A stretch of DNA of 64,000 nucleotides, taken from the NCBI GenBank assembly GCA_903859205.1, contig CAIOLM010000042.1, positions 62,001 to 126,000 of the forward strand. The letters are read 5' to 3'. This document shows positions 5,752 to 9,996 of this stretch, piece by piece. The stretch comes from an uncultured Microbacteriaceae bacterium (lineage in GTDB: Bacteria > Actinomycetota > Actinomycetes > Actinomycetales > Microbacteriaceae). Every line of letters starts with the position of its first letter. The stretch's first letter is position 1. The notes under the pieces were generated by a model that saw only the letters and a list, made by a program, of their open reading frames with translations, did no database searches and had not been told where the DNA came from. Position numbers and translations under genes: made by a program.

Positions 5752-5786
5752 AAGAATGGCCACCCAATGGGTGGCCATTCTTGTTT
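5752..5786. terminator. Bidirectional hairpin terminator
   Basis: A perfect 14-bp inverted repeat (AAGAATGGCCACCC, loop AAT) lies between the convergent exonuclease and L31 genes. It is followed by TTGTTT on the plus strand, and preceded by an A-rich run that reads as T on the minus strand. It can end transcription from both sides. Confidence 0.85.
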
Positions 5787-6912: not shown

Positions 6913-8097
6913 CTAGATGGTGACGGAGTCGTACACCGCGAGGGTCGCAGCGGCGATACTCTCCCATGAGAAGTGCGTGATGGCCCGTTGGCGAGCCGCC
7001 TGTCCCATTGTGGCCGCGCGAGTCTCATCGCTGAGGGCGTGCAGCAAGGTAGAGCTCAAGTCGCCGACGAACTTGGCAGGGTCTACGGGTGTACCGGTGC
7101 CATCCTGCACTTGGTTGATAGGAACGAGCCAGCCGGTCGTGCCATCGTCAACCACTTCAGGGATGCCCCCTGTTGCGGTTCCCACGACGGGGAGTCCACA
7201 GGCCATGGCTTCGAGATTCACGATTCCCAGAGGCTCGTAAACACTCGGACACACAAAGACCGTGCTTGCGGTAAGCACGGCACAAAGGTCGTGTTTGGGA
7301 AGGTGCTCCTCGATCCAAATCACGCCTTCGCGATCCTGCTGCAGCGCAGCAACCGCCGTCTGAACTTCGAGCATGATCTCGGGCGTATCAGGCGCACCTG
7401 CACACAAGATGATCTGCACGTTTGTTGGCAGGGTGGCTACTGCTTGAAGGAGGTACGGCAAACCCTTTTGGCGTGTGATTCGACCCACGAAGACCACTGC
7501 GGGACGAGATGCGTCGATCCCCCAGCGATCGAGAACGGTCGCGTCGTGTGTCGGCTTCCATGCGTCGCAGTCGATTCCGTTGTGGACCACGTGGACGCGC
7601 GAGGGATCAATGTCTGGGTAGCTTCGCAAGATGTCGGCGCGCATGCCCGCGCTGACAGCGATAACCGCGTCGGCACTTTCGAAGGCATTTTTCTCAATCT
7701 CACTTGAAATGCGGTAACCACCGCCGAGCTGCTCCGCTTTCCAGGGGCGCAGTGGCTCGAGGCTGTGAGCGGTAACCACATGGGGAATGCCGTGCAGTTG
7801 CTGGGAGAGACGACCGGCTTCGTTCGCGTACCACGTGTGCGAGTGCACGAGGGTTGCTCCGGCTGTATCTTGGGCCATCTGCAGGTCAACGCCCAGGGTC
7901 GACAAAACCGAGTTGGCTTGCACGAGTTCCGCCGGAACGGCGTACGCAGTGACATCAGCCTCGTCGCGAGGGGCTCCGAAACAGCGAACCTGCACCTCTG
8001 TGTTGACACGAAGGGCTCGCACGAGTTCTGCCACGTGAACACCTGCTCCCCCGTAGATTTCGGGCGGGTACTCCTTGGTCAGTAAATCAATGCGCAC
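6913..8097 (-). CDS. glgA: Glycogen synthase / ADP-glucose-dependent glucosyltransferase, actinobacterial type
   Basis: The 394-residue GT4-type protein starts RIDLLTKEYPPEIYGGAGVH, the hallmark of the actinobacterial GlgA family. It also has the donor motif VGRITRQKGLPYLLQA and the E-x7-E motif in PSVYEPLGIVNLEAMACG. The family uses ADP-glucose to extend alpha-1,4-glucan. In mycobacteria the ortholog (GlgM) is known to make maltose-1-phosphate from ADP-glucose and glucose-1-phosphate for the GlgE route, so either reaction is possible. It is divergent from glgC, which makes its donor. The start is GTG, with TAGAGT ending 6 bases before it. Confidence 0.93.
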   Translation of the reverse strand: MRIDLLTKEYPPEIYGGAGVHVAELVRALRVNTEVQVRCFGAPRDEADVTAYAVPAELVQANSVLSTLGVDLQMAQDTAGATLVHSHTWYANEAGRLSQQLHGIPHVVTAHSLEPLRPWKAEQLGGGYRISSEIEKNAFESADAVIAVSAGMRADILRSYPDIDPSRVHVVHNGIDCDAWKPTHDATVLDRWGIDASRPAVVFVGRITRQKGLPYLLQAVATLPTNVQIILCAGAPDTPEIMLEVQTAVAALQQDREGVIWIEEHLPKHDLCAVLTASTVFVCPSVYEPLGIVNLEAMACGLPVVGTATGGIPEVVDDGTTGWLVPINQVQDGTGTPVDPAKFVGDLSSTLLHALSDETRAATMGQAARQRAITHFSWESIAAATLAVYDSVTI

Positions 8098-8103
8098 GTG
8101 GGC

Positions 8104-8109
8104 ACTCTA
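8104..8109 (-). promoter_or_regulatory. -10 box TAGAGT of leaderless glgA
   Basis: The minus-strand TAGAGT ends 6 bases from the glgA GTG. It is separated by only 3 bp from the oppositely directed glgC -10 box. Confidence 0.55.
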
Positions 8110-8112
8110 GCG

Positions 8113-8118
8113 TAGGGT
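8113..8118 (+). promoter_or_regulatory. -10 box TAGGGT of leaderless glgC
   Basis: TAGGGT is 7 bases before the glgC ATG at 8126. Its -35 region would fall inside the glgA coding start. Confidence 0.55.
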
Positions 8119-8125
8119 AAAGCGC

Positions 8126-9367
8126 ATGGTGGGCAAGAAAGTCTTCGGTATCGTTCTCGCGGGTGGCGAAGGAAAGCGCCTCATGCCCCTGACTGAGGAC
8201 CGGGCAAAACCGGCCGTGCCTTTTGGGGGTCAGTACCGCCTCGTCGACTTTGCAATATCGAATCTGATCAACTCGAACCTGCGCCAAATTGTTGTGCTCA
8301 CTCAGTACAAGTCGCACAGCCTCGACCGGCACGTGTCCCAAACGTGGCGCATGTCAAGCTTGTTGGGCGCCTACGTGGCTTCTGTTCCCGCCCAACAGCG
8401 TTTGGGCAAGCGATGGTTTACCGGATCAGCCGATGCAATTCTGCAAAGTTTGAACCTCATTCGAGACGAAAAGCCCGACATCGTTGTCGTTGTTGGCGCT
8501 GACCACGTCTACCGTATGGACTTCGACCAGATGATTCAGGCTCACATTGACTCGGGGCGTCGGGCCACTGTGGCTGCTATCCGTCAACCGATCTCGATGG
8601 CCGACCAGTTCGGGGTCATCGAAATCGACGCGAGCGACCCGACCAAGATTGCGCGATTCCGCGAGAAGCCCAAGGATGCCGTTGGTCTGCCCGATAGCCC
8701 CAACGAAGTGCTTGTTTCTATGGGAAATTACGTCTTCGACGCTGACGCCCTGATTGAGGCCGTTGAGCTCGATGGCGCGCGCGCAGAGTCTTCGCACGAT
8801 ATGGGTGGCGACATCATCCCGCATTTCGTTGACCTTGACGAGGCGGGCGTTTACGACTTCAACCGCAACGTCGTGCCAGGTTCGACCGAGCGCGACCGCT
8901 ATTACTGGCGTGATGTTGGAACGATCGACTCGTTCTACGACGCGCACCTCGATCTCATCGCGGCGCTTCCGGTTTTCAATCTCTACAACATGGACTGGCC
9001 GATTTACTCGATGCTGGTCAACTCTCCCCCGGCAAAGTTTGTGCGAGATGACAGCGGCAACGTTGGCGAGGCAATCGATTCAATTGTTTCCCTGGGTTCG
9101 CTCATTCAAGGGGCGCACGTCGAGCGCTCGGTGTTAGGCCCGTGGATTCGAATTGAGTCCGGCGCTCGTGTTGCCGACTCGGTGGTCTTTGAGAACTGCG
9201 CTATCGGACGCAACGCGGAAATTCGTCGAGCCATTCTCGACAAGCAGGTCATCGTCGAAGAGGGCGCGCAGATCGGCGTCGATCATGACCGCGACCGCGC
9301 ACGAGGTTTTACGGTCACCGAATCCGGCATCACCGTTGTCGGCAAGGGAGTTCGCGTCACGCCATGA
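8126..9367 (+). CDS. glgC: Glucose-1-phosphate adenylyltransferase
   Basis: GlgC (413 residues) joins ATP and glucose-1-phosphate to give ADP-glucose, the committed step of glycogen synthesis. Visible features are the nucleotidyl-transfer loop [19 protein letters not shown], the sugar-phosphate region [10 protein letters not shown], the conserved [19 protein letters not shown], and a C-terminal left-handed beta-helix with hexapeptide-like repeats (from about residue 290). Length is normal for the family. The stop overlaps the serB start by 4 bases (ATGA), so serB is translationally coupled. Confidence 0.96.
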
Positions 9368-9996
9368 GTCGTCGTCTGGTGGTTCTCGATGTCGACAGCA
9401 CTCTCATTGAAAACGAGGTCATCGAGCTGTTGGCTGAAGTTGCAGGAACTCGTGCGCTCGTTGCCGAGGTGACAGAGCGAGCGATGCGCGGGGAATTGGA
9501 TTTCGCGCAAAGCCTTCGCGAGCGTGTGGCGACTCTTTCCGGCGTTCCTGTTGCGGCATTTGATGAGGTTCGCGCCCAGGTCAGAGTGACCTCGGGAGTG
9601 CCCGAGCTCATTGCTGCAGTTCACGCCGCCGGGGGTAAGGTCTGCGTGGTGTCGGGCGGATTCCACGAGATTCTTGACCCGCTCGCGCGGGAGCTCGGCC
9701 TGGACGACTGGAGAGCTAACCGACTTGAGGTGGAAAACGGTCTCTTGACCGGACGTGTTGACGGTCCGATTATTGACTCTCAGGCAAAGGCTGACTGGCT
9801 GCTGACCTGGGCTCGTGAAGGCGACTTTGACATCGACGCAACGGTTGCCATCGGCGACGGCGCAAATGACCTCAAAATGATGGAGGTAGCGGCCTTGTCA
9901 ATTGCTTTCGACGCTAAGCCCGTTGTCTCTGCGCAGGCCGACCACAGCATCACTACGCGCGAAATGCGCGAAGCAATTGCCCTGATTGGGCTTTAG
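9364..9996 (+). CDS. serB: Phosphoserine phosphatase
   Basis: The 210-residue HAD-family protein has motif [20 protein letters not shown] (DxDST, nucleophile Asp9), motif II around VVSGGFHEI, and motif [15 protein letters not shown]. These are all diagnostic for SerB, which makes serine from phosphoserine in the last step of the phosphorylated pathway. It lacks the N-terminal ACT domains of the longer SerB type. It is coupled to glgC by a 4-base overlap, and its end overlaps the convergent fabG by 4 bases. Confidence 0.93.

Follow-up and report, generated by a model that had tools for sequence, protein, structure and literature searches.

The glgA and glgC genes of an uncultured Microbacteriaceae bacterium are divergently transcribed from start codons with only 28 nt between them, and this region is, in our judgment, quite probably a pair of leaderless promoters of a known kind, ordinary apart from its compaction. 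We posit that this part of the window (the whole 64,000-nt stretch of DNA that was analyzed) would carry on each strand one housekeeping-σ promoter of the leaderless kind known from actinobacteria, consisting mainly of a TANNNT −10 box placed 6 or 7 nt before the start codon. Because of this placement, transcription should begin at A8126 for glgC and at G8097 for glgA, and both mRNAs would be translated without a leader. A polymerase on one box would probably block the other box, presumably at little cost at ordinary promoter strength, so that glgA and glgC would be expected to be expressed together, not in alternation. What had been proposed as a GlgC/GlgA switch thus becomes mostly an ordinary actinobacterial layout, whose back-to-back arrangement is normal among relatives and unusually tight in the window. 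The elements of the region are as follows:

8098 to 8125, no strand: divergent intergenic region between glgA and glgC, 28 nt
8104 to 8109, minus strand: −10 box of glgA, TAGAGT, ending 6 nt before the start codon
8113 to 8118, plus strand: −10 box of glgC, TAGGGT, ending 7 nt before the start codon
8097, minus strand: transcription start of glgA predicted from box spacing, the first base (G) of the start codon
8126, plus strand: transcription start of glgC predicted from box spacing, the first base (A) of the start codon

The start codons are GTG for glgA (8097, minus) and ATG for glgC (8126, plus). A first-pass annotation of this DNA was exact in its coordinates and box sequences, in the 28 nt between the start codons, and in the gap of 3 bp between the nonoverlapping TAGAGT and TAGGGT; the 6- and 7-nt distances from box to start codon, absent from that annotation, are characteristic of leaderless promoters in actinobacteria, where TANNNT stands a few nucleotides before the start codon, as it does here on both sides. 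From the same spacing, the predicted starts of the two genes are 29 bp apart. Like leaderless promoters that lack a Shine-Dalgarno sequence, the two upstream stretches of the window contain, by reading, none of the listed Shine-Dalgarno-like 4-mers. Comparison with relatives supports both start codons: in all 110 loci of a first family set, the GlgA start codon lies 8 codons before an EYPP..GGAG motif and the GlgC start lies 9 to 11 codons before LAGG. A GTG immediately follows the ATG of glgC in the window, so the glgC start could also lie 3 nt further in. Promoters of this design have been described repeatedly. Leaderless genes, in Actinobacteria and elsewhere, are described as recognizable by TANNNT about 12 bp before the start codon (Zheng 2011, PMC3160421); in M. 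tuberculosis, TANNNT is reported centered 7 to 12 bp upstream of 73% of primary starts, with no −35 consensus (Cortes 2013, PMC3898074); and 33% of C. glutamicum mRNAs are reported to be leaderless, about 21% of these with GUG (PMC3890552).

Conservation within Microbacteriaceae was followed in two sets of loci. A search of 299 family genomes found a match in 242; the first set (n = 110) combines 30 loci from this search, the window's included, with the best 80 named loci among the matches listed, mostly under Microbacteriaceae names, and the second set, taken from 30 further genomes of the 299-genome search, many of them small, gave 25 pairs. Two loci that proved to be other nucleotidyltransferases (L002 and L003) are left out of all family counts, and some organisms come from two collections. 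In the first set, where the rows include near relatives and counts are consequently not independent (103 of 110 sequences are distinct), all 110 loci have glgA and glgC in divergent orientation. TANNNT stands 6 to 8 nt before glgA in every locus of both sets (110/110 and 25/25, 135/135 together) and 6 to 7 nt before glgC in 105/110 and 24/25, or 129/135 together; the latter figure becomes 130 with the other start of L184, which lacks the glgC box at the start used but has it at an ATG two codons earlier. One locus (L192), with its glgC start 14 codons out, was read by eye. The five loci of the first set that have no TANNNT before glgC (L019 to L022 and L025) carry CATTCT or CATCCT in its place. 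At every other spacing up to 59, TANNNT is found in 0 to 6 of the 110 loci. The middle three bases of the boxes vary while TA...T is constant (TACTGT, TAGTGT, TATTGT, and others), a pattern that led us to reject the box as a Shine-Dalgarno sequence; Shine-Dalgarno-like 4-mers of the listed set are rare (8 and 4 of 110 loci). Two loci titled Planococcus sp. and Acidobacteria bacterium (L086 and L097) encode a GlgC with 73% identity to that of the window, in the same layout; their assemblies are probably mislabeled or contaminated.

The same signal recurs elsewhere in this genome more often than by chance. By simple and rather rough ORF calling in 384 kb of about 1.7 Mb, TANNNT 6 to 7 nt before an early ATG or GTG was found for 52 of 356 called genes, as against 12, 8, 7, 6, and 11 genes at five control spacings. 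Both boxes are present in 2 of the 47 divergent pairs in these 384 kb, and glgA/glgC is the tighter of the two (28 versus 120 nt).

The first-pass annotation had also placed the −35 region of each promoter inside the opposite gene. As geometry this stands, since a spacer of 16 to 18 bp leads to these sites:

8089 to 8096, plus strand: expected −35 site for glgC, within glgA codons; best match TGCGCA, 3/6
8126 to 8133, minus strand: expected −35 site for glgA, within glgC codons; best match CCACCA, 2/6

Neither site, however, holds a −35-like hexamer. At spacings of 15 to 19 bp we found nothing resembling TTGACA, the best scores of 3/6 for glgC and 2/6 for glgA being often reached by shuffled DNA, and classical −35/−10 promoters were rejected on this ground; a consensus promoter scan likewise listed nothing in the 28-nt region. 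We infer that a working −35 is lacking on both sides. Where the intergenic region is 45 to 48 nt long, AGTACA recurs 16 to 17 bp before the glgC box in 31 of 47 loci, where it might act as a weak −35 for glgC. A GTACA beside the glgA box recurs across genera in loci of this length (e.g., L014, L023, and L035), and is absent from the window's genus; it may extend a promoter, serve as a weak −35 for glgC, or bind a regulator. In the phylum, −35 elements are not absent, given that a weak one is reported at 704 of 2,522 promoters of C. glutamicum (PMC3890552).

The genes served by the two promoters are the following:

6913 to 8097, minus strand: glgA, TIGR02149 glgA_Coryne, 555 bits against a cut-off of 302.4
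8126 to 9367, plus strand: glgC, glucose-1-phosphate adenylyltransferase; NF002023, 651.6 bits (cut-off 458), and TIGR02091, 433.1 bits (cut-off 424.9)
9364 to 9996, plus strand: serB, overlapping the glgC stop codon; TIGR00338, 239.5 bits
6101 to 6892, minus strand: gene for the ATPase of an ABC transporter, 20 nt downstream of glgA

Each promoter probably serves a second gene as well: serB, found behind glgC and in the same orientation in 138 of the 140 family loci, is likely cotranscribed with glgC, and the ABC ATPase gene is likely cotranscribed with glgA. The persistence of the serB-glgC neighborhood, with an overlap at 9364 to 9367 in the window, amounts to a lasting link between a serine synthesis gene and a glycogen gene for which there is no obvious reason. 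The window GlgA passes the cut-off of the curated glgA_Coryne/GlgM family, TIGR02149, which we take to correspond to GT4. It is probably the maltose-1-phosphate synthase GlgM, an identity made more likely by the presence in its genus of the GlgE pathway: a GlgE domain and GlgB each score above cut-off in all three genomes of the genus. The reasoning from GlgE and GlgB to GlgM follows PMC11046441 and PMC4981310. Further along the minus strand, a likely terminator lies between convergent genes at 5752 to 5782, where a 14-bp hairpin precedes a T run.

The arrangement also occurs outside the family, and the divergent partner of glgC need not always be GlgA. At the class level, where 199 of 296 genomes matched and 60 loci were hand-selected among the listed matches so as to represent different families, glgA is adjacent to and divergent from glgC in 51 of 60. 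No glgA homolog lies within the fetched 1.6 kb in 8 of the 60, and another locus (L169) has a partial one about 1.3 kb away. Four loci (L143, L145, L147, and L148) offer no glgC start in the allowed range; of the remaining 47, whose glgC start can be assigned, the glgC box is present in 40, both boxes in 22, and the glgA box in 29, this last count being a lower bound because several of the scored glgA starts are not start codons. Two loci from other families of the class (L142 and L172) have 17-nt intergenic regions whose CTAG-centered boxes seem to overlap between the two strands, and these come closer to a true bidirectional promoter than does the window. In five genomes of genus g31 (L191, L193, L195, L198, and L199; 90 to 99% complete), no glgA was detected at an E value of 1e-20 with a query that had matched 135 of 140 family loci in a separate comparison, the search itself including no positive control. 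There, a gene for an ABC ATPase, with 53 to 55% identity to the one that follows glgA in the window, is divergent from glgC; TANNNT stands 7 to 10 nt before its ATG in 5/5 genomes, and the glgC box is kept in 5/5. The g31 loci look like a natural swap of the gene divergent from glgC, and, with the glgC box and a divergent promoter-like neighbor retained without glgA, they argue that the partner of glgC need not be GlgA.

What distinguishes the window is the spacing. Over 135 family pairs, the intergenic region measures 28 to 35 nt in 5, 45 to 48 nt in 67, and more in 63, and in the 130 pairs with both boxes the gap between them, which ranges from 3 to 94 bp, is 3 to 4 bp in 3, 8 and 11 bp once each, 21 to 23 bp in 62, and over 30 bp in 63. 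The gaps of 3, 3, and 4 bp belong to three genomes of the window's genus only, all of which keep both boxes. Short regions with both boxes also occur in two other genera (35 nt in L179 and 32 nt in L202), and the five short-region rows are scattered on the GlgC tree; for these reasons, the short spacing is probably derived and was probably reached more than once, as far as these sequences tell. A FastTree phylogeny of GlgC does not group the third genome of the genus (L013) with the window's, and we make no claim of one versus two origins within the genus. The 28 nt of the window would then reflect shortening, specific to this lineage, of an arrangement that most often measures 45 to 48 nt in the family. 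Relatives that carry the same gene pair with gaps of 3, 8, 11, 21 to 23, and over 30 bp offer a natural range of spacings over which to measure what polymerase exclusion costs.

Polymerase footprints are such that two polymerases can hardly fit at 3 bp, and the earlier view that the back-to-back −10 boxes are too close for two polymerases at once agrees with this geometry: enzymes on the two boxes probably cannot sit together. The same is expected at 21 to 23 bp, so exclusion would not be special to the window's genus. Whether it matters for expression would depend on promoter strength. Under strong one-sided activation, competition is possible; both outputs and their noise would be lowered only in that state, with no selection for a glgC/glgA balance, and we regard this incidental effect as a tentative but serious possibility. 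It is suggested by the 3-bp geometry and by five bidirectional promoters of E. coli (Warman 2026, PMC12825309), at which basal activity is reported as too low for competition and weakening one side barely affected the other, whereas a side that was strengthened or activated reduced its opposite, and interference cut noise at one promoter. Those promoters share a −10, however, while the boxes of the window do not overlap.

The stronger proposal of the first-pass annotation, that the overlap is a selected switch in which a polymerase at one box blocks the other, firing alternates, and ADP-glucose synthesis by GlgC is balanced against its use by GlgA, found no support, and we consider it unlikely. 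Boxes just 3 bp apart, both kept at gaps of 3, 3, and 4 bp in the genus, are what such a switch would need, and steric exclusion, with competition once one side is strong, is stated for the E. coli promoters (PMC12825309). Yet the 3-to-4-bp gap is not kept outside the genus, the g31 genomes retain the glgC box and a divergent neighbor with glgA undetected, second genes lie behind each promoter, and the same E. coli promoters do not compete at basal strength. Alternation would also be an odd way to balance two enzymes, since GlgC makes what GlgA uses.

In the family, the gap is often 21 to 23 bp. This gap is found in 10 of 20 representatives below 80% GlgC identity; among 11 representatives of the class, the middle 8 nt have 0.26 identity where composition alone gives 0.27, and the 6 nt beside the glgA box have 0.45. 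It is conceivable, if improbable, that the distance between the boxes is itself selected, about half of the examined family being held at 21 to 23 bp despite a randomized middle and the window's genus representing a second state in which the σ-binding boxes lie directly against each other and a single polymerase, in either orientation, takes up the whole site. If so, the glgC:glgA ratio and cell-to-cell noise would be tied to polymerase competition under strong storage induction. An operator for a regulator of both genes in the imperfect inverted repeat ACTCTA-gcg-TAGGGT is very unlikely, despite 5/6 symmetry around 8111 and the naming of RamA and RamB for C. glutamicum glycogen genes in a title cited by PMC6004087, because two TAG-type boxes on opposite strands create this symmetry by themselves and it is lost in one relative (G046) whose glgA box, TAATCT, is still TANNNT.

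A compacted pair of leaderless promoters finds partial counterparts in three described systems; published start sites for glgA and glgC in Microbacteriaceae or mycobacteria were not seen in the literature listings and passages covered. As an example of closely set divergent leaderless promoters in M. tuberculosis, prpD (Rv1130) and its divergent regulator Rv1129c resemble the window in being divergent and both leaderless, with TANNNT and no −35 consensus, and both are induced on starvation (PMC3898074). Their starts (1254510 and 1254630) are 120 bp apart, versus 29 predicted in the window, so this pair is evidence that divergent leaderless genes can be co-expressed but has no bearing on tight overlaps. 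The bidirectional promoters of E. coli are alike in that divergent starts arise from one polymerase-sized stretch and binding one way should block the other, but they use a shared −10, and their starts are usually separated by 18, 10, or 23 bp (PMC12825309); the separate boxes of the window, at 8104 to 8109 and 8113 to 8118, with predicted starts 29 bp apart, led us to reject a bidirectional promoter of that kind. In C. glutamicum, finally, the same two genes, glgA and glgC, are adjacent and divergently transcribed, with 153 bp between them in place of the 28 nt of the window (PMC6004087).
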